A stretch of 64,000 nt of DNA from a virus. Below the pieces are notes generated by a model that saw only the letters and a list, made by a program, of their open reading frames with translations, made no database searches and had not been told where the DNA came from. This document shows, in pieces, positions 1 to 40,167 of this stretch. The stretch covers positions 186,001 to 250,000 of IMG/VR virus record IMGVR_UViG_3300034073_003340, one strand, 5' to 3'. Every line of letters starts with the position of its first letter. Position 1 is the stretch's first letter. The translations under genes were made by a program, and so were the position numbers.

Positions 1-103
1 ATCTTGTCCGCCAGACGAGATTAATGCTGATTTTTACCTTCACGTTTATTTTAAGTCAGCAGAAGATGCCCTACTTTTCAAGCTTACATGGGGTGGACAA
101 TGA
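1..103 (+). CDS. FKL-W family protein, 3' fragment
   Basis: Only the last 33 codons lie in the window. They end in DALLFKLTWGGQ, the C-terminal signature shared by the genes that follow. The stop TGA overlaps the next ATG (ATGA at 100-103). Function unknown. The fragment shows that the array continues to the left of the window. Confidence 0.8.
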   Translation, partial: SCPPDEINADFYLHVYFKSAEDALLFKLTWGGQ

Positions 104-456
104 AAGTTTGGCCAGGCTCTACAGTTGATACTCGACTAACAAAGGTCGAAGTGCCGTTACCGCATAGTCAGCTGGTTCTGAATAAACATATTCGCGAAAC
201 CGCCCCGGAGATTCAACATCTCCTATTCATGCCTGAAATGGACTTGTGGTTTCAAGACCATAATCTCAATAGGGCGCCTGATCCTGTTGATGTTTATAAG
301 AACTCTGGCTATGATTTCGCAACTGACCGACGGATCATAAACGTTCGGGGTCTTGGATCAGTAGGCGGTTGGGTCAAGGAAACCAATCAGATCAATTTTT
401 ACTTTCTGGACCCCAAGATGGCTGTTTTGTTCAAACTAGTGTGGTGCGGCCAATGA
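100..456 (+). CDS. FKL-W family protein
   Basis: 118 aa, function unknown. It ends in MAVLFKLVWCGQ after the segment NFYFLDPK, matching the family pattern of a beta strand, a short acidic turn and a terminal helix. An in-frame ATG lies at 88, but the ATG at 100 overlaps the upstream stop (ATGA) and follows the G-rich GGGGTGGA, so 100 is preferred. It is longer than average, with extra sequence between the N-terminal strand and the C-terminal signature. Confidence 0.85.
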   Translation: MKVWPGSTVDTRLTKVEVPLPHSQLVLNKHIRETAPEIQHLLFMPEMDLWFQDHNLNRAPDPVDVYKNSGYDFATDRRIINVRGLGSVGGWVKETNQINFYFLDPKMAVLFKLVWCGQ

Positions 457-677
457 CAAAGAAGGAATGGCCATATAGGGTAACCGCAGTGGTTCATGAG
501 CTCAAATTCAGAGAGCTGTTGACATGGCTTCATGATGCCGGCCATACTCTTCACGCTACGGTGAAATTTGGAAAACAACATCGTCTAACCATAGATAGTC
601 CTATGGTAAAACAGGAAGTTGCTTTCAAGGACGGAAATCAAGCAATGATATTCAAACTAGCGTGGGGTGGAAAATGA
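453..677 (+). CDS. FKL-W family protein, short
   Basis: 74 aa, function unknown. It carries the mid-protein W motif (LLTWLHDAGH) and ends in NQAMIFKLAWGGK. The ATG at 453 overlaps the previous stop by ATGA and its own stop overlaps the next ATG the same way, so translation is probably coupled. A longer reading frame opens upstream at 369, but its first 28 codons only shadow the previous gene. Confidence 0.85.
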   Translation: MTKKEWPYRVTAVVHELKFRELLTWLHDAGHTLHATVKFGKQHRLTIDSPMVKQEVAFKDGNQAMIFKLAWGGK

Positions 678-934
678 CACCTCAACAAAAGGCAATGGCG
701 CAAATTCTTCAAGTCACCTTGTTTAAGTTGGCAGAAGAAACCCATCAAATATTAGATCGACTCCGTCAAAGATATCCTGATTCACGAGAAAGATTTGACC
801 TTTTGAGTCGGCAAGTAGAAACTGCCGTTGATAGGACTCTTGAAGATTATCATACCAACGGTAGAAATTTTTCAGTTCAAGAAATGGACAAGATCCATTC
901 TGATATTATTGAGATAAGACGTCTCCTTGGGTAA
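674..934 (+). CDS. Small helical protein inside the FKL-W array
   Basis: 86 aa, function unknown. Start at 674 by ATGA overlap. It lacks the C-terminal signature and reads as mostly helical and charged (LDRLRQRYPDSRERFDLL), ending in IEIRRLLG. An N-terminal VTLFKLAEE superficially resembles the family motif but is in the wrong place. It may be a different gene captured by the array. Confidence 0.75.
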   Translation: MTPQQKAMAQILQVTLFKLAEETHQILDRLRQRYPDSRERFDLLSRQVETAVDRTLEDYHTNGRNFSVQEMDKIHSDIIEIRRLLG

Positions 935-1220
935 AGAAACATATCTTGGTGTACAATGGACAACTGTTTTGATCCCTATTACCTCCATGGTTTGCGTAAC
1001 AAAATTGGCCTACGATGGATATGGCAAATATGATGTATTGAATTTGCCCGAAGACATGGAGAATTGGCTTTACAGCGAAACTGATGGCATACAGCACTCC
1101 AGAGTAGATAAGAGACACTGGTGGTGGGATATTGATGATATAGACCATGTTAAATTTTACTTTAGAGACGTCTCTACTGCTATCAAGTTCAAATTAACAT
1201 GGGGTGGCGTATGTCGCTGA
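927..1220 (+). CDS. FKL-W family protein
   Basis: Up to 97 aa. The mid motif is MENWLYSE and the end is STAIKFKLTWGG plus VCR. The start is uncertain: TTG at 927 overlaps the previous stop, while the first ATG is at 987 and would remove 20 residues. Neither has a convincing Shine-Dalgarno sequence. The C-terminus overlaps the next gene by 10 bases. Confidence 0.75.
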   Translation: MGKETYLGVQWTTVLIPITSMVCVTKLAYDGYGKYDVLNLPEDMENWLYSETDGIQHSRVDKRHWWWDIDDIDHVKFYFRDVSTAIKFKLTWGGVCR

Positions 1221-1540
1221 TACTCTGGGATAGTGATAATCCCCTTAAAGTTATCATCACACAGGCCATTGATTACAATCAATTAGTTTTGCGAGAACCT
1301 CGGTCGGACGCTGAAAAAGAAGAGAGGCGCAACAGAAGAAATAAACAAACGTCTTCAGAAAAGCTACGTGATCTATTTTGGGAGACTTTTCAGGCACATT
1401 GGCGGGCTTCTCCTTTTTATTCGTGGTTTGAAGAGTTCTGCCCGGGTTATAAAGTATTCAAGATGTCTGGAACCGATAGTGTGTCCATTGAGTTCGCAGA
1501 TCACAGACAGGCGGTCCTATTCAAATTGACATGGGGGTAG
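1211..1540 (+). CDS. FKL-W family protein
   Basis: 109 aa ending in RQAVLFKLTWG. It carries an Arg/Glu-rich insertion (KEERRNRRNK) near residue 35 that other members lack. The ATG at 1211 follows TGGGGTGGCGT, which serves as both the last codons of the upstream gene and a plausible ribosome-binding site. An in-frame ATG at 1199 lies inside that signature and is rejected. Confidence 0.8.
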   Translation: MSLILWDSDNPLKVIITQAIDYNQLVLREPRSDAEKEERRNRRNKQTSSEKLRDLFWETFQAHWRASPFYSWFEEFCPGYKVFKMSGTDSVSIEFADHRQAVLFKLTWG

Positions 1541-1542
1541 GC

Positions 1543-1761
1543 GTGAGCGGCTGTATTCTACCTTTTGATAAAGTGGCCAGCTATGACTGGAATAGAGAAA
1601 TCAAAGTCCTTATAAACGAGGATATACGGATTTGGCTATCTGAACACCAGGGTTCATATGTTTGGTTGATCAACTCAGTATCACATATCGAAAGCTGGCA
1701 GGTATCCTTTGAATTCGTTAATCACTCTGACTTGGTGTTGTTCAAATTGACTTTTGGTTAA
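1543..1761 (+). CDS. FKL-W family protein, short
   Basis: 72 aa from a GTG start at 1543 (an in-frame ATG lies at 1531 inside the upstream signature). The mid motif is IRIWLSEHQG and the end is SDLVLFKLTFG. GGGGGTAG just upstream is the likely ribosome-binding site and is also the end of the preceding gene. Function unknown. Confidence 0.78.
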   Translation: MSGCILPFDKVASYDWNREIKVLINEDIRIWLSEHQGSYVWLINSVSHIESWQVSFEFVNHSDLVLFKLTFG

Positions 1762-2217
1762 ATGTGGCTTCATAATAGTCACATGCGTATATGTAGAATC
1801 TACCAGGTAAAATTCAAGGGTAAAATGGCCAGTCTCAACTCGCCAGCGTCAGTTGAGTATTGGGTAGTTGATGATGATGGTAAACGATCTCAAGTTCGTA
1901 TACCCAATCATCCAAAGATCATAGAAGCTTTTGAATGGATGAATGAAAACGATTGTCTAAGACATCTCCAGAACGCCACACCTAGCTACCAGAACAACCA
2001 AATAGAAATAGAAGCCATTGAACATCATAACGCAATGTTGGAAGAGAACTCATATGCCCTTCCCAAACAATATTGTGTGAGTACCGGGTCATACAGAGTA
2101 TTCATACCAGGACTTAAACCAGTCCCTGAAAAGACCTTTGAAGTAACTTGGAGTTTTTGGTCCAAGGAACATGCGGTTATGTTCAAGCTGGCGTGTGGTG
2201 GCGATCTTGAGGATTGA
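1762..2217 (+). CDS. FKL-W family protein, extended
   Basis: 151 aa, among the longest single-domain members. The ATG directly abuts the upstream stop; a second in-frame ATG at 1783 is possible. It ends in EHAVMFKLACGGDLED, so the usual W of the signature is C here. The extra length lies between the N-terminal strand and the terminal signature. Function unknown. Confidence 0.8.
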   Translation: MWLHNSHMRICRIYQVKFKGKMASLNSPASVEYWVVDDDGKRSQVRIPNHPKIIEAFEWMNENDCLRHLQNATPSYQNNQIEIEAIEHHNAMLEENSYALPKQYCVSTGSYRVFIPGLKPVPEKTFEVTWSFWSKEHAVMFKLACGGDLED

Positions 2218-2617
2218 AGAGATCAATGGCATCTATGTTATTGTCAATAACATAGATGAAAATTTTTGGCAATCTCTCTTCATCAAGACCGGTGAGGTTG
2301 CTAGTGGCCGCCCTCGTCTCAAAGATTCACTAGCCCAATGGTGGGATCAGACGGCTCCAGGTGAATGGACAACTGCTTATCTGTCTAATCCCAGTAGACG
2401 GGTCATTGTGATAAGAGACCCCAGTCTCTTTATGCTTTTCAAGCTGGCTTTTTCTAATTCCGAAGAAATCAGTAACGAGGTCGTGATTTTAGATTCAGCA
2501 TGTTATTTTGCTCCCTATGTTTCACTTACTGCTTTACAAAATCCACATCCTGTGTTCAAATCAGATCATGACGATGAGGACGACCAAGCAGGACAATATA
2601 AGGGGTCACAGAGCTGA
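2198..2617 (+). CDS. FKL-W family protein with acidic C-terminal tail
   Basis: About 139 aa from GTG 2198 (GTG 2195 also possible), overlapping the upstream gene by 20 bases. The family signature appears internally as SLFMLFKLAFSN, followed by a tail of more than 40 residues ending in an acidic patch (DHDDEDDQAG). Most members stop at the signature, so the tail is unusual. Function unknown. Confidence 0.72.
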   Translation: MAILRIEEINGIYVIVNNIDENFWQSLFIKTGEVASGRPRLKDSLAQWWDQTAPGEWTTAYLSNPSRRVIVIRDPSLFMLFKLAFSNSEEISNEVVILDSACYFAPYVSLTALQNPHPVFKSDHDDEDDQAGQYKGSQS

Positions 2618-2711
2618 TCTTGAAGACAGGGTAGTCACGCTATATGCTGACAACCTTGTGGTCCACAGTGACCCTCACAGGGCAGATTTTGAACCCGTAA
2701 GAGGCTTGTGA
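2568..2711 (+). CDS. Possible small overlapping gene
   Basis: 47 aa, charged, starting inside the tail of the upstream gene. Its stop at 2709-2711 shares a base with the next ATG (TGATG), the coupling seen across the array; this is the main support. No strong ribosome-binding site precedes ATG 2568 or the in-frame ATG 2574. No signature, function unknown. Confidence 0.4.
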   Translation: MTMRTTKQDNIRGHRADLEDRVVTLYADNLVVHSDPHRADFEPVRGL

Positions 2712-2959
2712 TGGCCTGGGGTTTAGGAGGTGTCGGAGTATCAGTCTGTATAGATCGATACGACACGTTGATGGATAAAGTCATTGACATGGACGCCGAT
2801 GAATACGGTAGTCCGCGTATGGATCTCCAATACAATATCAAGATGTGGTTTAAGGATTCCACAATTCAGGATGAATGGTGGGTTGATGACCTAGGGAACG
2901 TTTGGTTTGAATTCGATCGTCGTGGTGAGGCAATGCTGTTTGTTTTGGAATGTTTGTAA
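2711..2959 (+). CDS. FKL-W family protein, divergent end
   Basis: 82 aa beginning MAWGLGGVGVSV and ending in EAMLFVLECL, a degenerate signature in which KL-T-W is replaced. The mid region has IKMWFKDS. ATG 2711 overlaps the previous stop (TGATG) and the stop overlaps the next start (TAATG). Function unknown. Confidence 0.8.
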   Translation: MAWGLGGVGVSVCIDRYDTLMDKVIDMDADEYGSPRMDLQYNIKMWFKDSTIQDEWWVDDLGNVWFEFDRRGEAMLFVLECL

Positions 2960-3267
2960 TGGATCCAATTGCTGTTACATTTGAGCACCACTTGCTTGTT
3001 CCTTACGAAACATGGGATAGTTGCTTCAATGCGAGGCTTCGAGATGACTTTTCCAAATGGCTCTTTGACAATATTGGCTTTGGTATCTCTATACCGGTTA
3101 TTGGTTGGGACAATGACAGCAGACAAGTCAATTGGGCTTGGTATGATGACAGACGTAAAGGAATGGACGCTCGCAAATGGAAGCATCAGGGATTTAAGAT
3201 ATTGTTCCTAAACCCCAGGCATGCCACATTAGCGAAGCTTACCTGGGGTGGAAAAGAAGTTACTTGA
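2959..3267 (+). CDS. FKL-W family protein
   Basis: 102 aa from ATG 2959 (TAATG overlap). It contains FSKWLFDNIG in the middle and ends in ATLAKLTWGGKEVT, with F of FKL replaced by A. The last 8 bases overlap the end of the convergent M15 peptidase gene. Function unknown. Confidence 0.85.
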   Translation: MDPIAVTFEHHLLVPYETWDSCFNARLRDDFSKWLFDNIGFGISIPVIGWDNDSRQVNWAWYDDRRKGMDARKWKHQGFKILFLNPRHATLAKLTWGGKEVT

Positions 3268-3703
3268 TAATTCCTGGCAGGTAACGCTTACCGGTTGGCG
3301 GTAATGTCAGCAATTGCTTACGGTTGCTGATACCAGACCTCAGACCGAAGCCAATGTGAACCCAACGACGACGTTCGTGGATCAGCTGGTCGAAGGTTAG
3401 ACCAGATTCAGCGATCGCAACACAAACATCATAGGGTGTTCCAAACGATGGACACACAAAGTCAACCGCAAAGCCAAACGAGTGAGCCGAAGTAGTAACA
3501 CCACCAACCGCTCTGTTAACCGCATCGCTTCTAAAAGCTGAATTAACTCGGATAGGCTTGTTACCAAGAATGGCGCGAATCTTTTCCATCTGCTGGGCAG
3601 TATGTGTTAGATTCTGAAGAGTTACACCGGTTGGGATATTTGGAAGACCAGTGGAGGTAGTAGTCATCTCCGCCAGGCTAAAGTTTGGGGTTAGTTGAGT
3701 CAT
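3260..3703 (-). CDS. M15-type D,D-peptidase, probable endolysin
   Basis: 147 aa. Peptidase M15 family zinc peptidase expected to cut peptidoglycan peptide cross-links. Residues about 55-85 contain the M15 pattern: SAFRS, VGG, then SAHSFGFAVDF with Zn-binding His and Asp; the third ligand is in WVHIGF near residue 117. There is no signal peptide, so export would need a holin or similar. The start has a strong AAAGGAGAT site. It lies against the direction of the surrounding array and has its own GCTAAATA box 26 bases upstream, suggesting late expression. Confidence 0.85.
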   Translation of the reverse strand: MTQLTPNFSLAEMTTTSTGLPNIPTGVTLQNLTHTAQQMEKIRAILGNKPIRVNSAFRSDAVNRAVGGVTTSAHSFGFAVDFVCPSFGTPYDVCVAIAESGLTFDQLIHERRRWVHIGFGLRSGISNRKQLLTLPPTGKRYLPGIIK

Positions 3704-3728
3704 ACCGATCTCCTTTATGGATTCCCCA

Positions 3729-3736
3729 TATTTAGC
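3729..3736 (-). promoter_or_regulatory. Late-promoter-like box GCTAAATA
   Basis: On the minus strand GCTAAATA lies 26 bases upstream of the M15 peptidase start. The same octamer precedes both divergent structural operons near 17180-17204. It resembles the T4 late promoter TATAAATA, so sigma-gp55-like control is inferred. Confidence 0.55.
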
Positions 3737-3750
3737 CTAATAAGTAGGGG

Positions 3751-3990
3751 GTGGACGATCAGTTATTCTCTGCCGTTAAAAATCCCAGACCATATCGGGT
3801 GGTTTTACCAAACGTTTCTAGCTCTTTGGATCATTATAGGGTCAGATGTTTTCTCCTCAACCTACAATGGGAGGAATTCACAGATTGGATGATTTCCCCC
3901 TACACCAACACCATCGCGGGGGAGTATGAAGTTTGGTTTACGGATATTGCGAAAGCCACATACTTCAAGTTATCGTTTAGCTTGAAATAA
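3751..3990 (+). CDS. FKL-W family protein
   Basis: 79 aa from GTG 3751, preceded by TAGGGG. It contains FTDWMISP and ends in KATYFKLSFSLK. It resumes the + array after the oppositely oriented peptidase gene and diverges from it; a promoter within 3704-3750 is possible but not recognised. Function unknown. Confidence 0.8.
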   Translation: MDDQLFSAVKNPRPYRVVLPNVSSSLDHYRVRCFLLNLQWEEFTDWMISPYTNTIAGEYEVWFTDIAKATYFKLSFSLK

Positions 3991-4003
3991 CAAGGTCGAG
4001 ATA

Positions 4004-4198
4004 ATGGAATATCCATATTATGTGGCGATATCGTCAGAGCACGATGGAAAAGAAGTCTTGGATTGGTTGACTGAAAACGGTATCAGGCACCAAGAGGATT
4101 ACAAAGCCCTTAGAATGCGCCACCGTGGAATCTATGCCCTGTATTTCAAAGACTCTAGAAAAGCTGTAATGACCAAGCTCAGATGGTCAGGCGTGTGA
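4004..4198 (+). CDS. FKL-W family protein, minimal
   Basis: 64 aa, close to the minimal form: N-terminal strand (YYVAIS), helix with VLDWLTENGI, then YFKDSRKAVMTKLRWSG. It is useful for defining the core fold. It ends 2 bases from the convergent end of the minus-strand array. ATG 4004 has only AAGGTCGAG upstream. Confidence 0.82.
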   Translation: MEYPYYVAISSEHDGKEVLDWLTENGIRHQEDYKALRMRHRGIYALYFKDSRKAVMTKLRWSGV

Positions 4199-4200
4199 TT

Positions 4201-4479
4201 TTAATTACCACACCATGTTAGTTTGAAGAGGACAGCTATGCGCGGATCCTCTATTCCCACATGCCAGTGATTATCCTTGATCTCGTTCCACACCAATCGA
4301 TAAAAACCGACTCTAGCTGATAACCATTCATGGATATCATCTCTTACAAACCAGCCTCCTCCATAGTGAGGTCGTTCTGATTCCAGTGTTGTGAGCTGGG
4401 TATTAGAACCACTTACTGTAGTTACCCGTTGATGGACAGAACCAGTAGTATTATAGCGATCCAATTCAACCCAAATCAT
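4201..4479 (-). CDS. FKL-W family protein
   Basis: 92 aa, the last gene of the minus-strand array. Mid motif DIHEWLSARVG, end IAVLFKLTWCGN. ATGA overlap with the upstream gene (4476-4479). Function unknown. Confidence 0.87.
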   Translation of the reverse strand: MIWVELDRYNTTGSVHQRVTTVSGSNTQLTTLESERPHYGGGWFVRDDIHEWLSARVGFYRLVWNEIKDNHWHVGIEDPRIAVLFKLTWCGN

Positions 4480-4787
4480 ACAACAAAAATCTCACCATCA
4501 AATCTTAAAGCAAACTTAGCAGCATCATGCTTTTCACGAAAGAAGAATGTAAAATGGTTTCTGACAACCCACCATGCCACGCTACCATTTTCTTCGTCAT
4601 GTAAGTCAGTAATATTGGCTTCCAACCAATCCCATATTTCCCATGACGGCATCGGACCACTATAATCGGGATCTAGATCAAGTTCTTCTTCATTGCGATT
4701 TTCTTCGTAGGGGAGACTAACCTCAACCCATCCTTGGCTACTAACCGCATTGAGTGGACCCATGGCCTGATTACCATGCTCTTTCAT
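4476..4787 (-). CDS. FKL-W family protein
   Basis: 103 aa from ATG 4787 (ATGA overlap); an upstream in-frame ATG at 4799 lies in the previous gene's signature. It has a strongly acidic stretch (NEEELDLDPD) near residue 35, then EIWDWLEANI, and ends DAAKFALRFDG plus EIFVV, a degenerate signature. Confidence 0.85.
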   Translation of the reverse strand: MKEHGNQAMGPLNAVSSQGWVEVSLPYEENRNEEELDLDPDYSGPMPSWEIWDWLEANITDLHDEENGSVAWWVVRNHFTFFFREKHDAAKFALRFDGEIFVV

Positions 4788-5086
4788 TGCCCGCCCCACA
4801 GTATCTTAAAGTATACGGCATGTTTGGGATCTTTAAACCAAAAATAGATATTTCTTTGATCCTCGGGTTTCCGGTAGTGCGCTTCCAAGGCGTTGATAAA
4901 CCAACCCCAAGTTTCTATATTGAAATCTACGCCTTCGGGGAAGCTAAAAAGAAAACGATCATCAGGAGTTGGTCCAGCGACCTTGATCAATAGATCAAGA
5001 GTATCACTGCGCAGTTTGATCGTCGTGTTCCAATCAACTACTTTGCCTGAATCCACTTTGATGATCGCTATATTATCGGGGATCAT
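4784..5086 (-). CDS. FKL-W family protein
   Basis: 100 aa from ATG 5086 (ATGA overlap with the upstream stop). N-terminal strand NIAIIKVDSG, end DPKHAVYFKILWGGQ. The WGGQ codons (tggggcgggcaa on this strand) precede the next start as a likely ribosome-binding site. Function unknown. Confidence 0.86.
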   Translation of the reverse strand: MIPDNIAIIKVDSGKVVDWNTTIKLRSDTLDLLIKVAGPTPDDRFLFSFPEGVDFNIETWGWFINALEAHYRKPEDQRNIYFWFKDPKHAVYFKILWGGQ

Positions 5087-5439
5087 TTGATCCCCGTCCA
5101 AGTCAACTTGAACAGAACGGCCACATTGGGATCAAACATAATGATTTCATAGCCGGCATCCGGGGCGGAAACATGAGTATCCAACTCATACTCATATCCA
5201 TGTTCTTTCATCCAATCTTCAATTTCTTCGGTGAGAACACGCGACATGGATAGAGTTGCGGTTCCCATCCTTTTGAATGCGGTAAACGATGAGTTTGAGT
5301 TTTCTTCTACTTCTGAAGGGTTTTCTTCATTCCAAGAAATGCCACTTATGCCGTCAACCACAAGACTGGTAAAGGATTCAGCATTCAAGACCCAAGCTGG
5401 TCTTCCTTGGTATGTGGTAGAAATGACCTCGGTGCTCAT
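5083..5439 (-). CDS. FKL-W family protein
   Basis: 118 aa. It contains EIEDWMKEHGYEYEL and ends VAVLFKLTWTGIK. The N-terminal 50 residues (MSTEVISTTYQ onwards) are longer than in typical members. The start lies 1 base past the upstream stop. Function unknown. Confidence 0.86.
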   Translation of the reverse strand: MSTEVISTTYQGRPAWVLNAESFTSLVVDGISGISWNEENPSEVEENSNSSFTAFKRMGTATLSMSRVLTEEIEDWMKEHGYEYELDTHVSAPDAGYEIIMFDPNVAVLFKLTWTGIK

Positions 5440-5440
5440 A

Positions 5441-5812
5441 TCATAATCCCCATGCTAGTTTGAACAACATCGCACTGTTCTTATCCAAGAATCCCACATG
5501 CCAACCTGGCTCCATGGAACCATTGGCATAGCGAAACTCAAATTGATAGGCTCGTTCCAATCCAGCATTCACCAGCCATTCATGAACTTCGTCCTTGAGA
5601 CGAAAAAAGCCATCTCGACCTTCGCTGAAACAGGGACGACTCACCAGATCCTGAGTTCCAAATTCGCCATTGCGTCGTGGGCAGACAACTATGCGACAGG
5701 CATCAGACTCATAGAATTCACGAACCGTGTTGGCTCGCTGGTCGTTGATCAACACCCAGTGGAGATTGCGTCCACTGGGATCTATGACTCTAAAGGGTCG
5801 CCCGTCTTCCAT
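5441..5812 (-). CDS. FKL-W family protein
   Basis: 123 aa. EVHEWLVNAGL is followed by a W-containing strand (GWHVGFLDKNS) and AMLFKLAWGL. A 19-base gap separates it from the upstream gene, one of few junctions without overlap; TAGGTG upstream of ATG 5812 is a weak ribosome-binding site. Function unknown. Confidence 0.85.
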   Translation of the reverse strand: MEDGRPFRVIDPSGRNLHWVLINDQRANTVREFYESDACRIVVCPRRNGEFGTQDLVSRPCFSEGRDGFFRLKDEVHEWLVNAGLERAYQFEFRYANGSMEPGWHVGFLDKNSAMLFKLAWGL

Positions 5813-5831
5813 GACGCCAATATAGCACCTA

Positions 5832-6035
5832 CTATGTCCAAGTCAATGCGAACCTAATGGCTTCTTTGCGATCAAAGAAATACCAACAGGTGGTGTTACT
5901 GGATCCAAAGTAAGAATTGCTGAACTGCCGTGTGAGATATATCTCACACCATTCTATGATCTCATTATGATTTTCATAACCAGGGGTGCGGACTTTGTAA
6001 TGGAGTCCAGATGTATATAAAACAAACTTGCTCAT
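5832..6035 (-). CDS. FKL-W family protein, short
   Basis: 67 aa from ATG 6035 (ATGA overlap). Compact core: KFVLYTSG strand, EIIEWCEIYL helix, WYFFDRKEAIRFALTWT end. Function unknown. Confidence 0.86.
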   Translation of the reverse strand: MSKFVLYTSGLHYKVRTPGYENHNEIIEWCEIYLTRQFSNSYFGSSNTTCWYFFDRKEAIRFALTWT

Positions 6036-6280
6036 AACCAAGTTAGTTTGAACAACATGGCATGATCAGGATTTTTGAAGAAAATGAAGACATGGTCAGA
6101 CAACATGGGATAATCATGGAACCAATCCCCCAGAGCTTCGTCGTTTACAAAGTGGCATTTATGACCAACGTTTCTATCTAGCCAATCCTTGATTTCCGGT
6201 CGCAAAGCAAACCAGTCAGGAAGATCGTATTCAACTTTACAACGATCCACTTTTAACTTGGTCCAACCCTGCCAGATCAT
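6032..6280 (-). CDS. FKL-W family protein
   Basis: 82 aa, close to the family consensus: EIKDWLDRNVG, then VFIFFKNPDHAMLFKLTWL. ATGA overlaps at both ends. Function unknown. Confidence 0.88.
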   Translation of the reverse strand: MIWQGWTKLKVDRCKVEYDLPDWFALRPEIKDWLDRNVGHKCHFVNDEALGDWFHDYPMLSDHVFIFFKNPDHAMLFKLTWL

Positions 6281-6558
6281 AGAAACGCTAACTTGAAAAC
6301 TGCCGCTTGTGCCCTATCTGCTATTTCCAGTCTCCAATGTTTATAGGATATAAACGTCAATGTATAACCGGAATTTAGAATGTTATGAGCAAAATCAGTG
6401 AGAAAATAATGCTTGGCTAGGCGAACCTGGGGATACCAAGGATCCTGGGCATCTGATATCACTTGTCGATCCACCGGGGCCTGACCATGAGAATAACCCA
6501 ACCAGTTGGGACGACTCCCCGAGAAATCAATGTCGTGATAAAGATGAAAGATTGTCAT
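6277..6558 (-). CDS. FKL-W family protein
   Basis: 93 aa ending IADRAQAAVFKLAFL. The usual W of the middle helix is absent (FAHNILNSGYTL). ATGA overlaps at both ends. Function unknown. Confidence 0.85.
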   Translation of the reverse strand: MTIFHLYHDIDFSGSRPNWLGYSHGQAPVDRQVISDAQDPWYPQVRLAKHYFLTDFAHNILNSGYTLTFISYKHWRLEIADRAQAAVFKLAFL

Positions 6559-6854
6559 TTGCCACCAAATGTCAACTTGAACAAAAGGGCATCATCAGAA
6601 GTCTTAAAGGATACAAAGTTGGTATTTGTCCACATATCAAAAGACTCAATACCATTATGCTCTTCAATCCATTCGGCATAACCCTCAGATAACTTTTCAG
6701 TTCTGATCTCGTTGTAAATCAAAACCGGCCAAGAATAACCAGAATCCTGATGATCCTTTAGGATCTCTTCACGGCGAGTTTGATGGAACTTTTTAACCAA
6801 CTCAATACCAAGAGCCAATGTCTCTGGGTTGGGTTTCCAATCAAAACTAGACAT
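6555..6854 (-). CDS. FKL-W family protein
   Basis: 99 aa. The N-terminus is unusually helical and charged (IELVKKFHQTRREEIL) instead of a strand. YAEWIEEHNG is present and the end is DALLFKLTFGGK. ATG 6854 follows GAGGTGGTATA, part of the upstream gene's last codons. Function unknown. Confidence 0.85.
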   Translation of the reverse strand: MSSFDWKPNPETLALGIELVKKFHQTRREEILKDHQDSGYSWPVLIYNEIRTEKLSEGYAEWIEEHNGIESFDMWTNTNFVSFKTSDDALLFKLTFGGK

Positions 6855-7107
6855 TATACCACCTCAACTTAAAAAGCAACGTTTGGTCCATGGTCTTGAA
6901 TCTAAAGGAAATTATACTAGGATCCCGTCCCATGTCTCTGATAAACCAAGCACCCCAGGTTTCACCCTCGGCAATCAAGCCATAAGTGTTTTCACTCAAC
7001 ACGGGGTCAATGTTGGCCTCTAACCAATCCAACATTTCCTTTGGAAGGCGACCATCTTCCAAAAGAACACGCATGGTGAGATTGGGACTTGGCTGATAAT
7101 CTTTCAT
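6847..7107 (-). CDS. FKL-W family protein
   Basis: 86 aa. EMLDWLEANI, WGAWFIRDMG, end QTLLFKLRWYNV. It overlaps the downstream gene by 8 bases; the start is 1 base from the upstream stop. Function unknown. Confidence 0.86.
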   Translation of the reverse strand: MKDYQPSPNLTMRVLLEDGRLPKEMLDWLEANIDPVLSENTYGLIAEGETWGAWFIRDMGRDPSIISFRFKTMDQTLLFKLRWYNV

Positions 7108-7108
7108 A

Positions 7109-7324
7109 TCAACCCCAGGTCAACTTGAATAAAGTCGCAATGCTATGGTCATGAAAACGAAAAACTACCCTGGTAGCAGTGAATGCCCAATCCCAATCGT
7201 CACCACAATGGCTGTTGAGCCATTTGACTATATTGGGATCTAGACAGTCACCACACCGCCAAGGAGATTCTCCATCATACACCTCAATCATGACGTTTTC
7301 ATATTTTACCGCAACGTCTATCAT
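7109..7324 (-). CDS. FKL-W family protein, short
   Basis: 71 aa from ATG 7324, which overlaps the previous stop (ATGA); a TTG two codons earlier is rejected. NIVKWLNSHCG, then VVFRFHDHSIATLFKLTWG. Close to the minimal core. Function unknown. Confidence 0.86.
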   Translation of the reverse strand: MIDVAVKYENVMIEVYDGESPWRCGDCLDPNIVKWLNSHCGDDWDWAFTATRVVFRFHDHSIATLFKLTWG

Positions 7325-7755
7325 CCCCAAGTCAACTTTACCAAAGCTTGTTGGCTTTCAGGAACATACAGGGTCATGGGCTCAAGGTTATTACTGTAGA
7401 TAAATTTGAATTCATCAACAATAGGAAAATCCCGCTCCCCACACCACTGACGAAACTCTTCCGATCTAGAAAAATCCACCGAGATCTTCATTTCCACATA
7501 ACCACGCGACACCAAGTCCTCAATGGTTACAATCTCTTCATCATCAGATTCATCCCACTTGATCAAAGTGGCGTTGAACTTTAACTTGAACTGAAGAGCA
7601 TATCGCTTGTCCGTGAATACCACATTGTAGATGGTATTACCATCAGCATCACGACGGTTACAAGCCAGATAGTCACCATGGCCTATATAACGAACAAAAT
7701 GGTCTACCTCTGCGAGATCATTGGTCTCACTAGAGACATCAAAGATATAACTCAT
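7321..7755 (-). CDS. FKL-W family protein, two tandem domains
   Basis: 144 aa with two copies of the C-terminal signature: VVFTDKRYALQFKLKF near residues 45-60 and VPESQQALVKLTWG at the end. The second unit contains EEFRQWCGERDF, equivalent to the EWL helix. This is an in-frame fusion of two array members, as expected if a stop/start junction is lost. Function unknown. Confidence 0.86.
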   Translation of the reverse strand: MSYIFDVSSETNDLAEVDHFVRYIGHGDYLACNRRDADGNTIYNVVFTDKRYALQFKLKFNATLIKWDESDDEEIVTIEDLVSRGYVEMKISVDFSRSEEFRQWCGERDFPIVDEFKFIYSNNLEPMTLYVPESQQALVKLTWG

Positions 7756-7758
7756 TGT

Positions 7759-8013
7759 CTATCCCCAAGCTAATTTAAAAAGAATGGCACAACTAGCATC
7801 CTCAATGTCTATTACCCAATAGGGATCACGATAGAAAAGTCTATAGTGACAACCAATACTCTCATGAGGTTGATCATTCAACCACCAAAAATCACGAACA
7901 ACCCTTGCGTGATCTGGATAACAAGGACGATCCGATCTAAACTCATAACCGTTGCCTAAAATGCCATTGGCCCGGCCATTACGCCCTGCATATATGAGAA
8001 CCTGATGGCTCAT
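7759..8013 (-). CDS. FKL-W family protein
   Basis: 84 aa from ATG 8013 (ATGA overlap; upstream TTG rejected). N-terminal strand HQVLIYAG, end DIEDASCAILFKLAWG. Function unknown. Confidence 0.85.
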   Translation of the reverse strand: MSHQVLIYAGRNGRANGILGNGYEFRSDRPCYPDHARVVRDFWWLNDQPHESIGCHYRLFYRDPYWVIDIEDASCAILFKLAWG

Positions 8014-8267
8014 GCCCAAGTCAACTTAAACAACATGGCATCTTTGGGATCTGAAAACGCTATTAAGTTGTCAGCTGGTCCCTGGAGGCGTCCACTATAT
8101 CGGTAATTCCACTGCCACGCCTGATCTCCAGACCATCCCCCAGATCTAGATCCCGGACCCACATGCTCCAATAACCAGCAGTAGACTTCATCAACCAACA
8201 ACCACACACACTGGTATGGAGAAGAGTTTTCAATGATGAGATTCAAAGGCAACTCAACCAAAGTCAT
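8010..8267 (-). CDS. FKL-W family protein
   Basis: 85 aa from ATG 8267 (ATGA overlap). EVYCWLLEHVG, then a Gly/Ser/Trp-rich loop, ending FSDPKDAMLFKLTWA. Close to consensus. Function unknown. Confidence 0.87.
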   Translation of the reverse strand: MTLVELPLNLIIENSSPYQCVWLLVDEVYCWLLEHVGPGSRSGGWSGDQAWQWNYRYSGRLQGPADNLIAFSDPKDAMLFKLTWA

Positions 8268-8551
8268 CCCCACCTCAATTTAAACAATATGGCAAGATGA
8301 CGGTCTTGCTCGTGAAAACAAACCATACGGCGAGGAAATCTAGGAAACCAATTTTCCGAAGAAGCCGCTGATCTACAATAACTCTTGATACACCACTGGC
8401 CAGGTTCCAGATCCCCACGCTCAGAACCCGCAGAAATATACTTTAACCCAAGAGAAGAACACCAATCCTTCCAACAACCCAACGCCGTCACATAAGGATT
8501 TCCATCACCCCATGTTTCTGCTTCAGGTTCGTTGATAGGAACATATATCAT
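8264..8551 (-). CDS. FKL-W family protein
   Basis: 95 aa from ATG 8551; a TTG at 8578 would add nine hydrophobic residues. GCWKDWCSSLG takes the helix position and LAILFKLRWG ends the protein. The 38-base gap upstream of 8551 is unusual for the array, so the longer form cannot be excluded. Confidence 0.8.
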   Translation of the reverse strand: MIYVPINEPEAETWGDGNPYVTALGCWKDWCSSLGLKYISAGSERGDLEPGQWCIKSYCRSAASSENWFPRFPRRMVCFHEQDRHLAILFKLRWG

Positions 8552-8589
8552 AGCCGGGTATAGACATAACCAAACCAACTTGTCAATTG

Positions 8590-8841
8590 CTAGGCAAATG
8601 ACATCTTAAACAACATTGCGTCACTAAGATTGTCAAAATATGCCCGCATGGGCACTTGGTGGCTTTGGTGCTCGGCCTCTGATAAAAATGATCGCAGACG
8701 ATACTCACCATCTTTGGGATAAACCCTGATCATCCAATCCCAAATACGATAGTCGGAAATGTCCCAATTGAACTCAAGACAACAAGGACCATACGTCTTC
8801 AACTTGAAAAAACAAAAATAACGAGAGCTAACCAGTTTCAC
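8590..8841 (-). CDS. FKL-W family protein
   Basis: 83 aa from GTG 8841, which overlaps the upstream stop as GTGA, parallel to the ATGA junctions. The preceding GGGGCGGGGA is a strong ribosome-binding site made from the upstream WGGE codons. YRIWDWMIRV, end DAMLFKMSFA. Function unknown. Confidence 0.82.
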   Translation of the reverse strand: MKLVSSRYFCFFKLKTYGPCCLEFNWDISDYRIWDWMIRVYPKDGEYRLRSFLSEAEHQSHQVPMRAYFDNLSDAMLFKMSFA

Positions 8842-9128
8842 TCCCCGCCCCATGCTAACTTGAACAGTATGGCGCAATTGACCTCACGGAACCCAATAAC
8901 AAATCTTCGATGAATCGGGCTATTACAAAATCCTGGACCCAAGACGTCTTGATTATAAAAATATGACCAACTGGGCGCATACAGGTCAAGCCATTCAACT
9001 AATAAGCTGCTGGGGAATATCTCAAAAGACCACATGCCACTGGATGGTAACTTGATCCAAAGACCTTCCAGTGGTGGACAAGAATAACTGATAAACCAAG
9101 AAGGCACCAAAGTGGACACTTCATACAT
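8838..9128 (-). CDS. FKL-W family protein, close paralogue of its neighbour
   Basis: 96 aa from ATG 9128 (MYEVSTLVPSW). Alignment with the gene at 9143-9445 sets the start, since both begin MYEV. The two share LVEWLDLYAPSWSYFY versus LVEWMKEYTPSWVYYH, then the FKL end (CAILFKLAWGGE). This is the clearest recent duplication in the array. Confidence 0.86.
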   Translation of the reverse strand: MYEVSTLVPSWFISYSCPPLEGLWIKLPSSGMWSFEIFPSSLLVEWLDLYAPSWSYFYNQDVLGPGFCNSPIHRRFVIGFREVNCAILFKLAWGGE

Positions 9129-9142
9129 AACAGAGAAACCAA

Positions 9143-9445
9143 CTAAAGTTGACACCAGGTCAACTTGAACAATACTGCGTCACTGGCCTCCTCAAAGGCA
9201 AACAAAACACCCGTGGGAATCTGAGAACTAAAATACCCAGTAGTTATAGGAGGCGCTACCTCATGATAATACACCCATGAGGGAGTATACTCCTTCATCC
9301 ATTCCACAAGGTGAGCTCGAGGATGAATCGCCTTGAACCAATGACCGCTGGCGGTGGTCCCCGATTGATATTCCAAGAGATCAGAACTACCCCCTCGTCG
9401 CCAAAAACTATCACCCAAAGGTATAGGAATAACAACCTCATACAT
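9143..9445 (-). CDS. FKL-W family protein, close paralogue of its neighbour
   Basis: 100 aa, MYEVVIPIPLG to DAVLFKLTWCQL. Upstream TAGGGGTATTTG can act as ribosome-binding site. The tandem duplicate lies immediately downstream. Function unknown. Confidence 0.87.
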   Translation of the reverse strand: MYEVVIPIPLGDSFWRRGGSSDLLEYQSGTTASGHWFKAIHPRAHLVEWMKEYTPSWVYYHEVAPPITTGYFSSQIPTGVLFAFEEASDAVLFKLTWCQL

Positions 9446-9466
9446 AGAACAAATACCCCTAGGGAA

Positions 9467-9691
9467 CTATTGACCACCCCACGTCAACTTGAACATAATG
9501 GCTAACCCCGGTGGACAATCTAAATGATACCAACGAACCCAAGAACTACGCTCATCATCCCAGGAAAACTCTTGAAACCACTGGCCGTTACCCACATGGT
9601 CGTTGAGCCATCTGATCCGCTCACTGGCAATCTCAAGATCATCAGATATGTCATCTTTGGACGAAGGATCATAACACACTATAGAGAACAT
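9467..9691 (-). CDS. FKL-W family protein, first gene of minus-strand array
   Basis: 74 aa from ATG 9691 (MFSIVCYDPSS), preceded by GAGGATCA. An in-frame ATG at 9775 would add 28 residues but runs through repeated CTATAG motifs that look regulatory, so the shorter form is preferred. RIRWLNDHVG, end LAIMFKLTWGGQ. Function unknown. Confidence 0.78.
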   Translation of the reverse strand: MFSIVCYDPSSKDDISDDLEIASERIRWLNDHVGNGQWFQEFSWDDERSSWVRWYHLDCPPGLAIMFKLTWGGQ

Positions 9692-10301
9692 TGATCCTCT
9701 ATAGTGGACAAAAGACCGATTGTCACTATAGAGAGATTGATCACAAAGATAACTCTGGTGAGGCACTATCATCAAGAATCACCAGAGTTGAGGTCAAGAA
9801 TTCTTATCTATATTCAGACAATTTTCCCCTTTTATCAACCATTTTTCTACAACTATAGAGACTGGAGATGCGCATTATTGCTGGCTCTTAGCAACAAAGA
9901 TTACTGATTTGGCAAAAAGAAAATCAAAAATAATTCTTTCAATAGGAAGACAGATTTAGGCGATTCTGACACTTTTTATACCTCTATGGTGACTCTACTG
10001 TAAAGGTATTTTGTTCACTATAGAGACTACTATGGGAGTCACTATGGGAGTCACTATGGAGTCACTATAGTGGACAACACTGGGTATCGCTTTACTATAA
10101 GGACTCAGAGTTTGTCAGTAGACCACTTTTAGATTTTGGTCAAAAATTTGGCCCGCGCGAAATCGCGCTTTCTAGGATTTTGGATCGTCTAGCTTTTTGA
10201 CCCCCCACTTGTCAGAAAAAGCGGTTTGACTTTTTGCTATCAGTCAAGTGAAAATTTCAATACCTACCATCCATTATCTTCTCAGTAGAAGTATTGACCC
10301 A
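9692..10301. promoter_or_regulatory. Non-coding regulatory region with CTATAG repeats
   Basis: About 610 bases with no credible gene. The motif CACTATAG or its complement occurs at 9677-9684, 9699-9706, 9724-9731, 10016-10023 and, palindromically, about 10062-10073; near-copies follow at 10029-10063. AT-rich tracts lie at 9900-9960. At about 10153-10166 GCGCGA-AA-TCGCGC is a small hairpin followed by TTT. It probably holds the promoters of the minus-strand array; an origin is an alternative. Confidence 0.55.
10029..10063. repeat. Tandem 12-bp repeats ACTATGGGAGTC
   Basis: Two exact copies (10029-10040, 10041-10052) and an 11-base variant (10053-10063) run directly into ACTATAGTGG. Iteron-like or operator-like. 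Confidence 0.8.
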
Positions 10302-14953: not shown

Positions 14954-17158
14954 TTATTTGTCTCCCGGCGGAAACTTGTAGTATTTACTCTCAGACTGGA
15001 GACTGGTATCAAAAGTCGTAAAGGCAACTGTTGGTGTATCCAAGTTGTCAGGACCGTCAAAAGTTGTAATTTCTGGGAATCCAAATTCAGTTCCATCAAA
15101 AGTAGTTGAAGCAAAACCATCACTAATGAGGAGATACCTATCCACTTCAATAGTGGTTCCCTGAAGATCATCATTAATACCAGCGGTGTCTAGAGCTCTC
15201 ACAATAGCAGGACCGCTTCCTGCTCTCACATGAGCTAATTCAATAGCACATTGGTACCCCAGAATAGTGTCTGGACGTCCTCGCTCTTGTTCACTTATCA
15301 TCCAAAGAGGCAATCCTTCACGACCAGAAATGCCATAACCAGGAAGAGCTCCTGGTAATCTATCGTTGCGATTGATAAGGTCAGATCGCAGGTTCTTTAT
15401 ACTATTGGGATAGTAATTACTTGTGCCTTCCAAGAGGTTCCATTTGGGAATCGCAACAGGTGTCTGACCTGGATTATAACGATTTAGAGGCTCCTCTTGT
15501 CCAAGGGTGTTGAATCCACCTGCCCCTTCCATGGGGTCAAGTATTCCCAAATAAATCACATCGTAGAGATGTACTCCTTCAGGGCTACGTGCTCTGGCCG
15601 TTTGAACTTTACCAATTCTCAACTTAGTTGGATGATGATAGTCTTTGAGGCGATCAATTAGATCACCTGTCTGATAGTTGATACCGTTGGTTAGTAGAAT
15701 TCTATACTGGCGATTTTTTCCAAAATATTGGTCAATTTCTCTATAGAGTTGATCTCTTCCAAGCACAGTCAGTCGGTCTGATGCTAGGGCGCCAGCATTA
15801 TTGACATATCTTATGATTTTGATTTCAGTTCCAGCTGCTGGTATGGAACCAGGAGGAAATATAATAAAATCTTCACGCAACTCAGTAATTCTGGAAATTG
15901 TTCCTCTGTAAATTTGATTATTCAAAAATACATCCACGGCATCACCAAGTCGGCCTCTTGGAACAAGGAACTTTGAATCTGTTCCATTTCCAATATAGAC
16001 TCTCTGACTCACCGAGTAATCAGGTCTTGGCTCTGGTAGAGTTCCCCATACCCATTTGGCTATTTTTTGACGTGCCGGTCCAGGAACATTGAATTGGAGA
16101 CTGGTAACTGAATCAGCAGCAAAAATCGATCTAATGGTAATGGAAAAGCTTCGCTCGCTGGCAATTGCTGACGGACGAACTTCCCCTGTTTCATTATTGA
16201 CGAAAACCACTCTGGCCTCAACAATAAAATCAAAAGTTCTAGTAACCGTCACGTATGGGCATCGACCAATTATAAGACCGGACGATGGATCCAAGAGTAA
16301 GCCTTCTGGTAATGGACGACTACCAGGTGTAATGGTATAGTTGATGACTTGCGATTCAGTAGAATTGCCAGATGCTACTTGGTATTGCGGAACAGCCCTT
16401 ACTCCAAAGTGACTGGGATAGGTCTCAAATGTAGACCCCAAGGATCCCGCTGGAGTTTCCCAGCGAACCACATCGGATAGTCGGGCGTCCAGGACAATAT
16501 CTTGCCCAATTGTCAGCTTGTAGACCTTCTCTGACGTTCTAGGAGATCCCTCTCCGCGAGGATTACTTTGAAGGTCATCCGGGTCTCGAGCATAGACTCT
16601 AAAATAGTAATCACCTGGAACATTTCCAGTAATGGTCGGGGATCCAACAATTCTACCAAATTGGTCAACTTCAAGACCAATAGGCAAACCAGACTGGGAG
16701 CCTGCCGGTCCCTTGTAACCAACCGCCTTGAATTCAAGTGGATCTTGATCTGGGTTGACAATATCCAATTGGATTACAACATTGGATCCTCGATTTACTA
16801 ATCCCAAGTCTTGAATACCAGATGGTGAAGACCAGCTTTGTTCTTCATCGCTCAAATCAACAATAAACCTAAAACTTCTGTCGTAGGTTCTATTGGAAGA
16901 TCGGAGGAATACTCTAAAGACTACTGGATAGCTTTCTTGATCTTTTGGTAATGATCTAACGGTGCCCAGTATTCTCAGAGTTCCATTATTGTAGAATAGT
17001 CCAGGAGGCAATTGGCCGCCAATGAGTTCCAAACGATCCAAATCATTTCTGGCATCTGGAGAAATTTCAAGGCTAATAGAAGCCTGGTCACCACGGCGCC
17101 AAGGTTGTCCATTATTCAATAGATTTCCAGAAGGTGGCGAGAACCAAACAGCAACCAT
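14954..17158 (-). CDS. Structural adhesin with Ig/cadherin-like putative domains
   Basis: 734 aa. Repeats carry the He_PIG-type signature L-P-x-G-L-x(5-7)-G-x-[IL]-x-G: GGQLPPGLFYNNGTLRILG, GLPIGLEVDQFGRIVG, LPEGLLLDPSSGLIIG. These beta-sandwich domains are common in phage fibres and baseplates. First gene of the minus operon, 19 bases from a GCTAAATA box; ATAGGAGGAATTTC is its ribosome-binding site. Its domains resemble those of the divergent + gene, so the two operons encode related surface proteins. Confidence 0.8.
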   Translation of the reverse strand: MVAVWFSPPSGNLLNNGQPWRRGDQASISLEISPDARNDLDRLELIGGQLPPGLFYNNGTLRILGTVRSLPKDQESYPVVFRVFLRSSNRTYDRSFRFIVDLSDEEQSWSSPSGIQDLGLVNRGSNVVIQLDIVNPDQDPLEFKAVGYKGPAGSQSGLPIGLEVDQFGRIVGSPTITGNVPGDYYFRVYARDPDDLQSNPRGEGSPRTSEKVYKLTIGQDIVLDARLSDVVRWETPAGSLGSTFETYPSHFGVRAVPQYQVASGNSTESQVINYTITPGSRPLPEGLLLDPSSGLIIGRCPYVTVTRTFDFIVEARVVFVNNETGEVRPSAIASERSFSITIRSIFAADSVTSLQFNVPGPARQKIAKWVWGTLPEPRPDYSVSQRVYIGNGTDSKFLVPRGRLGDAVDVFLNNQIYRGTISRITELREDFIIFPPGSIPAAGTEIKIIRYVNNAGALASDRLTVLGRDQLYREIDQYFGKNRQYRILLTNGINYQTGDLIDRLKDYHHPTKLRIGKVQTARARSPEGVHLYDVIYLGILDPMEGAGGFNTLGQEEPLNRYNPGQTPVAIPKWNLLEGTSNYYPNSIKNLRSDLINRNDRLPGALPGYGISGREGLPLWMISEQERGRPDTILGYQCAIELAHVRAGSGPAIVRALDTAGINDDLQGTTIEVDRYLLISDGFASTTFDGTEFGFPEITTFDGPDNLDTPTVAFTTFDTSLQSESKYYKFPPGDK

Positions 17159-20951: not shown

Positions 20952-21605
20952 TCAATCTCCCTCTTTGGATGCCCGGGCAGCTTCTAGCTCGCTCACTAGC
21001 ACTACACGCTCCGATGACCCGATATTATCACTCCAGGTCATTTTGAACAAGATAGCATCCTTGGGATCAGCAAAATAGAAGGTTCCATTCGTCCAACGCT
21101 GGATCCTATATCTGTCATCATTGTTGATTTGAGGACCAAACTGATCCTCGCACCATTCCTGCATTTGTGTGATATGTGAAGTTGTGAAGCCAGTTCTTCC
21201 TCTGGTTCTTCTAACTGGAATCCTAAAAGCTATCCTATATTTTTTAAAGAACAACTGACTTCTGGTGATGACCTTTTCTCTTGCCATCTGCTCAGTATGT
21301 TGTTTGTCAATTGGCTTTTCGTATTCTTCAAAGTTCTCCTGTCCAATGGTTTCAGACAAGAGATCGAAGATAGCCGGATCTTTGAAGAATACTGTATAGT
21401 GGAGAACTATTGATTTAGATGAAAACCAATCATTGTTAGCGGTAGATTCAATTCCCCTCCACTGGTTTTCAAATTTGGTGTTTAGAATCCACTCGATAAC
21501 TTCCTGAGTTGGAACCTTCTTCTGTTTTTTATACTTTCTAAGCTTGATCACTAGACGGTGATCATATGTCTTAAAATAGATCTTACGAGTAACCAGTTCT
21601 TTCAC
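20952..21605 (-). CDS. FKL-W family protein, two divergent domains
   Basis: 217 aa. The first unit has EVIEWILNTK and VFFKDPAIFDLL, a degenerate signature. A basic linker follows (PVRRTRGRTG), then a second unit with QMQEWCEDQFG and FYFADPKDAILFKMTW, then a 24-residue tail. Larger than the fusion at 7321-7755 and independent of it by sequence. It is the last gene of a second FKL-W cluster. Function unknown. Confidence 0.84.
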   Translation of the reverse strand: MKELVTRKIYFKTYDHRLVIKLRKYKKQKKVPTQEVIEWILNTKFENQWRGIESTANNDWFSSKSIVLHYTVFFKDPAIFDLLSETIGQENFEEYEKPIDKQHTEQMAREKVITRSQLFFKKYRIAFRIPVRRTRGRTGFTTSHITQMQEWCEDQFGPQINNDDRYRIQRWTNGTFYFADPKDAILFKMTWSDNIGSSERVVLVSELEAARASKEGD

Positions 21606-21614
21606 TATATCCTC

Positions 21615-21872
21615 CTACCAGCGAAGCTTGAAAAGCCGCGCGTCTCGATCGTCAAAGAGGACAACGTGAAATTGAATTCGAGAATATGGCCAATCCAATA
21701 CAGTTTCCGGCCAGTATTGATAACGATCAGGAGAGCAATTGGAGTCAATCCAATCCCCCACTTCTCTGTGATCTTCAAATTCTGAATAATCCAACCAGAA
21801 GTGATGATGGCCTCTCAATAGACCATTTTTATACTCGCTTTTTGGTTTTACGTATTTGATAATGCTTGTCAC
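21615..21872 (-). CDS. FKL-W family protein
   Basis: 85 aa. EVGDWIDSNC, then VVLFDDRDARLFKLRW directly at the stop. The N-terminus is basic (IIKYVKPKSEYKNG). Part of the five-gene cluster at 20952-22589. Function unknown. Confidence 0.85.
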   Translation of the reverse strand: MTSIIKYVKPKSEYKNGLLRGHHHFWLDYSEFEDHREVGDWIDSNCSPDRYQYWPETVLDWPYSRIQFHVVLFDDRDARLFKLRW

Positions 21873-21881
21873 ATCACCGTG

Positions 21882-22130
21882 TTAGTAGGTGATGGTTTGA
21901 TTTGTCACTATGTTTTCAAGCACAAAACGAATCGCATCAATTTTACGTTTGAACGAATACCGTAAGTGCTCACCACGTTCAAAATCGTTTTGGTAGACAA
22001 TGGAAACCTGCCTGGGTATCTGTTCACACCAGTCGTTCATCTCCAGCAATTCGTCCGCAGTCGCATCGTAAACATTGACCCAGTAGGGATACATTTCATC
22101 GTCTAACCATAGATAGTAAAAATCAGACAT
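21882..22130 (-). CDS. FKL-W family protein, degenerate
   Basis: 82 aa. LLEMNDWCEQI, then YSFKRKIDAIRFVLENIV; the signature is recognisable by position but KL-T-W is lost. It overlaps the upstream gene by 8 bases. Function unknown. Confidence 0.8.
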   Translation of the reverse strand: MSDFYYLWLDDEMYPYWVNVYDATADELLEMNDWCEQIPRQVSIVYQNDFERGEHLRYSFKRKIDAIRFVLENIVTNQTITY

Positions 22131-22362
22131 AGGTTTTCAGTTTACAAAACACGGCTTCTTTTTTCAAAAGAAAATAGAATCTCTGATTCCAATAACCATT
22201 ACCGTCACTATACATCGCACCAGCATAGAATCGATCTTCACAAAAAATGCGACAGTGACGATCCACATTTATTAGTTCAATTTGAGTTCCCCGACAAACT
22301 AATACGTGCGGAAACGTATAGTCTTCTCTGTCCGATAAGTCCTGATAGGAACACAGTTTCAT
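22123..22362 (-). CDS. FKL-W family protein, degenerate
   Basis: 79 aa from ATG 22362 (TGATG overlap). It ends FYFLLKKEAVFCKLKTYV, matching F-x-F-x-K-x-x-A-x-F-x-K-L. A Cys-rich middle (HCRIFCEDRF) is unusual. Function unknown. Confidence 0.8.
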   Translation of the reverse strand: MKLCSYQDLSDREDYTFPHVLVCRGTQIELINVDRHCRIFCEDRFYAGAMYSDGNGYWNQRFYFLLKKEAVFCKLKTYV

Positions 22363-28915: not shown

Positions 28916-28967
28916 AGGGCCACTCTGCATTCAAAGTGGGTCCTTGTCTACCGCTTTGTGGATCGCG

Positions 28968-30352: not shown

Positions 30353-30398
30353 ATGACCATGTAGAGGTATCATCTTTTCAAAGTCAATAAATAGTCAT

Positions 30399-39647: not shown

Positions 39648-39718
39648 AAACCTCTGTTTAACCTTTTTACAAATGCCTACACCCTGGAGACTAGCAGGTT
39701 ACACCAGGGTGTCAACCA

Positions 39719-40093: not shown

Positions 40094-40125
40094 TTTCGAT
40101 CTCCTTGTTTGCTTCCGATAAACCA

Positions 40126-40153: not shown

Positions 40154-40167
40154 CCAGAATCTCGCCG

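Follow-up and report, generated by a model that had tools for sequence, protein, structure and literature searches.

Dozens of small proteins with a shared C-terminal motif point to an old expansion of one domain in a group of jumbo phages

Why should a single phage carry dozens of tiny genes whose proteins end in the same way? The question is raised by bases 186001-250000 (the window, 64,000 bases in all) of a virus record of 435,856 bases (IMGVR_UViG_3300034073_003340), where a motif of the type A-x-L-F-K-L-x-W closes gene after gene in what we call the FKL-W family. An earlier note, made from the sequence alone, had counted 39 copies taking up about 15% of the window. The motif is present at the places it named, and the count settles at 38 genes (30 at 88-9775, 5 at 20952-22589, 1 at 32754-33032 and 2 at 60145-60713), which cover 11,263 bases or 17.6%. 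The first block, thought to hold 31 genes, contains 30 genes yet 31 domains, one of them (7321-7755) having two motif-bearing halves.

These genes form one expanded protein family, as had been proposed. A hidden Markov model (HMM) was seeded with 36 window copies and then extended in repeated rounds on stretches from this record and from six related phages. It takes in 383 open reading frames (ORFs; 366 distinct sequences, a few ORFs being counted in two overlapping stretches), compared with none in reversed-sequence controls, so that the resemblance is not due to chance. The profile has two conserved blocks, with poorly conserved sequence between and before them. The first is a D-E-[IV]-x-x-W-[LC] helix, whose shorter form (E-[IV]-x-x-W-[LC]) had already been recognized and whose Trp is 98% conserved where present. 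The second, F-x-F...A-M-L-F-K-L-T-W-G-G, has the core consensus F-x-F-[KR]-[DN]-P-K-D-A-M-L-F-K-L-T-W-(G-G), with A at 91%, F at 92%, K at 92%, L at 91% and W at 75% (or F at 20%). The profile contains no conserved cluster of catalytic-type residues. The motif had been placed at the extreme C-terminus; this holds for most members (244 of the 334 with a clear motif end 1-3 residues past it), but not strictly, since about 9% have a tail of at least 10 residues. Some window members are weak: 22123-22365, 32754-33032 and 21882-22130 have profile E values of 0.005 to 6e-5, and 6277-6558 and 2171-2617 were assigned mainly through the motif. The members in the window are listed below.

88-456 (+): family member, 122 amino acids (aa); start likely at 100
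453-677 (+): family member; the ORF opens at 369, with a coupled ATGA start at 453
927-1220 (+): family member
1199-1540 (+): family member; 5 relatives have syntenic orthologues (34-43% identical)
1531-1761 (+): family member; orthologues in relatives
1762-2217 (+): family member with a large insertion; low-confidence model with compatible element order
2171-2617 (+): family member with a C-terminal extension
2708-2959 (+): family member with a degenerate end (MLFVLECL)
2950-3267 (+): family member
3751-3990 (+): family member, well conserved (50-64% in relatives)
4004-4198 (+): family member, the shortest in the window (64 aa)
4201-4479 (-): family member at the 3' limit of the minus-strand block, which converges on the plus block
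4476-4799 (-): family member
4784-5101 (-): family member
5083-5439 (-): family member
5441-5812 (-): family member
5832-6041 (-): family member
6032-6280 (-): family member
6277-6558 (-): family member, weak to the full profile; motif IADRAQAAVFKLAF; a similar protein (L029 8262-8549) is among the profile matches
6555-6854 (-): family member
6847-7107 (-): family member
7109-7330 (-): family member with a confident AlphaFold model
7321-7755 (-): two-domain member with tandem motifs; orthologues 62-65% identical
7759-8019 (-): family member
8010-8273 (-): family member
8264-8578 (-): family member
8590-8877 (-): family member, weak
8838-9155 (-): family member
9143-9445 (-): family member
9467-9775 (-): family member, 5'-most of the minus block
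20952-21605 (-): family member, 217 aa, with a degenerate N-terminal repeat of the domain
21615-21872 (-): family member
21882-22130 (-): weak family member (E 6e-5)
22123-22365 (-): weak family member (E 0.005)
22362-22589 (-): family member
32754-33032 (-): weak family member (E 0.0014)
60145-60444 (-): family member with a C-terminal extension
60441-60713 (-): family member

The shared end is conserved at the protein level, because 53 of 55 motif 24-mers are distinct as DNA and the motif codons for A, V, I, L, K and T are used broadly as in the gene bodies. What this end does within the protein was suggested by an AlphaFold2 model of 7109-7330, built with 46 family sequences (predicted local distance difference test score (pLDDT) 96, predicted template modelling score 0.79). 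The model is a compact bb-b-a-bb-a domain with strands at residues 2-7, 12-16 and 24-28, a helix at 30-40, strands at 44-48 and 52-57 and a helix at 60-70. The Trp helix and the F-x-F/A-x-L-F-K-L-x-W block coincide with both helices and the last strand, and the constant end is therefore predicted to be the last strand and helix of the domain, i.e. part of its core rather than a tail tag. For 1762-2217 (151 aa), the model from four sequences (pLDDT 64) places the insertion after the first helix; its element order is compatible with that of 7109-7330, which is suggestive only, and a fold search with this low-confidence model was discarded as not meaningful.

The family has no counterpart in the libraries searched. 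Scans of 46 members against Pfam, PHROGs, NCBIfam and PADLOC gave only isolated matches at E 0.002-0.01, each to a single member, and the scans of ten window members gave the same picture. A sequence search of the PDB with the family returned nothing, and among viral models Foldseek matched nothing better than proteins without a known role from uncultured tailed phages (lowest E 0.004). No relevant open-access paper contains the motif strings, and the papers on the phages Atu_ph07 and AP-J-162 do not use 'paralogue' or 'gene family' for these proteins. By these sequence comparisons the family is new and unnamed.

How far does it extend? The proteins of the window indicate a tailed jumbo phage like Atu_ph07 and Phosso: in a search of 50,697 phage records, the structural protein at 14954-17158 matched only Atu_ph07 (Agrobacterium) and Phosso (Sinorhizobium), with about 31% identity. 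In its own record, the profile matches 88 places at E<=10, of which 80 at E<=5e-4, laid out as a main convergent array, smaller clusters and singletons. Related records, from environmental jumbo phages, contain 103 (417-kilobase (kb) contig), 92 (462 kb) and 85 (465 kb) members, with 67, 52 and 59 in fragments of 183, 119 and 277 kb, respectively. Phosso (PV764938.1) has 52-65 members with the same motif, annotated as hypothetical proteins in the part of its record that we consulted. The comparison of copy number proposed in the earlier note thus gives 52-103 per related jumbo-phage record, versus 2-4 in Atu_ph07 and none at E<=0.1 in ten other named phages, the pattern of a lineage-specific paralogue expansion. 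In Atu_ph07, gp255 and gp258 are clear distant members by motif (EIKKW...YYFEESSSALAFAITF, VAFEDSDDALQFVLRY) without the FKL signature, and two more are marginal. No match at E<=0.1 was obtained with profile A5 in RaK2, PBS1, phiKZ, XacN1, S-SM2, P-SSM2, S-SSM7, HTVC008M, T4 or G, nor at E<=0.01 with profile A2 in the same phages minus PBS1 and XacN1. The earlier note had linked similar ends to large marine phages, a link that found no support: four marine phages lack a match at E<=0.01 with a cleaner profile. A match in the cyanophage S-SM2 (E 0.002 with the first profile) was lost with cleaner profiles, and the marine link was dropped.

Further carriers were sought with degenerate DNA patterns. 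Small phages and prophage-like contigs, e.g. contigs of 30-42 kb, have one to five copies; of two pattern matches in bacterial genomes, that in Novosphingobium (L060) contains two real members, while that in Spirochaetia (L059) was fortuitous and falls within a long ORF not related to the family. Together with the named phages without a match, these small carriers indicate that the expansion belongs to one group of jumbo phages and that the domain itself is more widespread.

We then asked whether the copies are recent. Five relatives have arrays of the same design, in which a plus block meets a minus block, and for many members (e.g. 1199, 1531, 1762, 2171 and 3751) reciprocal best hits occur in the same order. 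The presence of many members among relatives is patchy. Within a genome, identity between members is at most 41% over most of their length, and for 298 of 360 members the best hit lies in another phage; by these comparisons, the duplications predate the divergence of the phages. Outside the conserved blocks the sequence had been said to vary freely, which is not the case: orthologues in relatives are under purifying selection, with a ratio of nonsynonymous to synonymous substitution (omega) of 0.06-0.4 where measurable, and recent duplicates are absent. For 30 orthologue pairs of the closer phages G003 and G012, omega (Nei-Gojobori) averages 0.20 in the body and 0.07 in the motif, values that are rough because synonymous divergence (dS) is about 1.4-1.6, near saturation; for G006 versus G008 the body gives 0.11. 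Divergence is nonetheless rapid, as anticipated. Next to the gene of a UvsW-like helicase, the syntenic members of G000 and L012 share 34% identity, versus 90% for the helicase and the adjacent 166-aa protein, and between L012 and L023, at matched synonymous difference (0.55-0.56), nonsynonymous difference is 0.248 for the member and 0.042 for the helicase (sixfold). Because syntenic orthologues are under purifying selection and no phage has close paralogues, the family is an old and retained set of specialised proteins, which is constrained yet diverges several times faster than the core genes beside it.

What might such a set do? With moderate confidence, we infer that the copies of this old lineage-specific expansion of one small domain are expressed early and that they bind or inhibit many factors of the host or of rivals. 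Each would be a separate accessory protein built on the common hydrophobic core, which comprises the W helix, the F-x-F strand and the A-x-L-F-K-L-x-W helix, and would present a binding surface of its own through its particular loops, N-terminal strands and insertions. Different copies would bind different host proteins, or factors of anti-phage systems or competing phages, and either block or redirect them. They would be made together with the genes of the replication phase, among which scattered copies are found. Those copies adjoin genes for DNA polymerase, clamp loader, topoisomerase, helicase and tRNA synthetase (assigned by reading of the sequences, the helicase alone by profile), and this siting near genes for replication, nucleotide metabolism and translation suggests that expression is early or middle rather than late only. 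No single type of ligand is implied, the surfaces apparently differing among copies: net charge is widely spread (median -1, range -13 to +13), and Trp is abundant (4.3% versus 1.6% in the remaining long ORFs of the window). Both features speak against a single ligand for all copies, for instance DNA, and against mimicry of DNA, for which the strong uniform negative charge was not seen.

Three points weigh against this role. Omega in the variable part is well below 1 (about 0.20 and 0.11), i.e. without an arms-race signature at the scale measured, that of rough values with dS near saturation; weak constraint can also give fast evolution; and the set is dispensable in a related lineage, that of Atu_ph07 with its 2-4 members. 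We hold only tentatively to the most specific version, in which about 100 single-domain binders, possibly of a new fold and each directed at one host or rival-phage protein, would make up a long-maintained library for counter-defence and takeover.

The copies might alternatively be virion proteins, paralogues that are contained in the head, attached to it or ejected together with the DNA, as in giant phages of the phiKZ type. SPN3US has a 20-member family of head paralogues, of unknown function and differing in size from phage to phage (PMC5694885), and the main array adjoins structural genes of tail type, for one of which Atu_ph07 and Phosso have clear relatives. Yet members also lie within replication and translation gene clusters, the array genes overlap as expected for translational coupling, and a shared structural role predicts a conserved contact surface, whereas the members are dozens of dissimilar versions of 60-100 aa each. 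This makes a virion role unlikely; if it were correct, the family would be by far the largest set of virion paralogues known to us.

Less probable again are nucleic-acid-binding or regulatory proteins, each copy acting on an RNA or operator of its own. The F-x-F strand and the helix after it resemble the beta3-alpha2 part of an RNA recognition motif (RRM), the core order is b-a-b-b-a, and Foldseek gave weak, non-significant matches to small alpha-beta nucleic-acid-binding folds (e.g. RRM, template modelling score 0.42, and ribosomal proteins). However, the best PDB match with the 7109-7330 model was only at E 0.89, the net charge centres near zero with the wide range given above, and the RRM/ferredoxin-like b-a-b-b-a-b topology was not found, the model lacking the final strand and having an extra N-terminal hairpin.

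That the family is weakly useful ballast, duplicated and drifting and kept by virtue of jumbo-phage genome size, is slightly more doubtful still: it would account for the patchy presence of many members and the fast divergence, but most measurable orthologue pairs are under purifying selection, recent duplicates are absent and reading frames are intact over hundreds of copies.

By far the least credible is a DNA-level repeat (a recombination site or ribosome-binding cassette) as the origin of the shared end, which is refuted for the A-x-L-F-K-L-x-W core by its distinct DNAs, its otherwise free synonymous codons, its place in the strand and helix that close the confidently modelled domain and its omega of 0.07, despite F codons that lean to TTC (73% versus 38%), and which stands for the GG tail alone. 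The terminal Gly-Gly codons form GGGGNGG just upstream of the next start, usually in an ATGA or GTGA overlap, and this may be the Shine-Dalgarno sequence of the next, overlapping gene. Coupling is found for 63 of 76 GG-ended genes (83%) versus 118 of 197 others (60%; Fisher p 3e-4), with 120 of the 181 coupled starts at -4 (4-nucleotide overlap), and the terminal Gly-Gly looks partly DNA-driven.

Another element lies at the edge of the array.

9676-10072 (strand not assigned): near-palindromic CACTATAG/CTATAGTG sites, 6 of the record's 12, clustered where the minus block has its 5' end and past it

This stretch is possibly an operator, promoter or origin region. Similar clusters occur at the equivalent place in three relatives, L049 (15221-15936), L051 (17166-18984) and L053 (14862-15919); G003 and G012 have none there. 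Two other genes are set into the array. One, at 3260-3703 (-), on the strand opposite to its neighbours, encodes an M15-type peptidase (likely a lysin) and is kept at the equivalent place in G006 and G008, where the proteins are 83% identical to each other. The other, at 662-934 (+), encodes 90 aa with a match, below the Pfam cut-off, to a sigma-54 activator-interacting domain; similar proteins are found in the relatives' arrays. Unrelated genes at 39700-41100, 58322 and 63752 (-) have a similar leader of the GGAGATCGGAAATG type (..RRSEM in extended ORFs), perhaps a common promoter or ribosome-binding cassette; the short pattern GGAGGTCTGAAATG alone was not above chance as tested.

Elsewhere in the window are genes for a glutamyl-tRNA synthetase-like protein (27662-28930 (-); tRNA-synt_1c and anticodon-binding domain), a 4HBT thioesterase-like protein (29966-30373 (-)) and an FtsK/SpoIIIE-like translocase (53267-54382 (-)) whose best phage matches, in a Listeria phage, a gut phage and a mycobacteriophage, are about 44-46%. 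Two further proteins with the motif occur in other stretches. L046 1088-2890 (-) encodes 600 aa without a Pfam match and with the motif VAVTFPNKGAAMMFKLAYNG near its C-terminus, a possible domain fusion (weak, E 0.004), and L041 10870-11355 (-) encodes a 161-aa family member after two hydrophobic, by eye probably membrane-spanning stretches.

T4-like phages have compact early-gene clusters of host-takeover proteins, which are unrelated small proteins. The FKL-W arrays resemble them in consisting of tiny, tightly packed, overlapping, fast-evolving accessory genes but reuse one fold, and T4 has no member. Bacillus phage G has a lineage-specific expansion of zinc ribbons in about 35 copies (PMC7824862), again a small domain multiplied dozens of times within one jumbo phage. 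This phage lacks FKL-W members, however, and the present family lacks the zinc-ribbon cysteine pattern, has 2-3 times more copies and is common to several phages. Head paralogue family B of SPN3US and phiKZ (2-20 members; PMC5694885) likewise comprises giant-phage paralogues of unknown function and variable copy number, but its members are head proteins, and phiKZ has no FKL-W member. Small-domain expansion in a jumbo phage is thus a known kind of event; what is new is an unnamed family that is several times larger, found in several phages and retained by selection.

Most genes of jumbo phages have no known function. Here, 80 or more genes of one record reduce to a single family, and many unknowns become one question. 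If the copies are binders of different targets, they would provide a ready set of small, stable proteins with which to find weak points of the host and anti-phage systems. That Phosso, an isolated phage growing on Sinorhizobium meliloti, carries the family makes the question testable.

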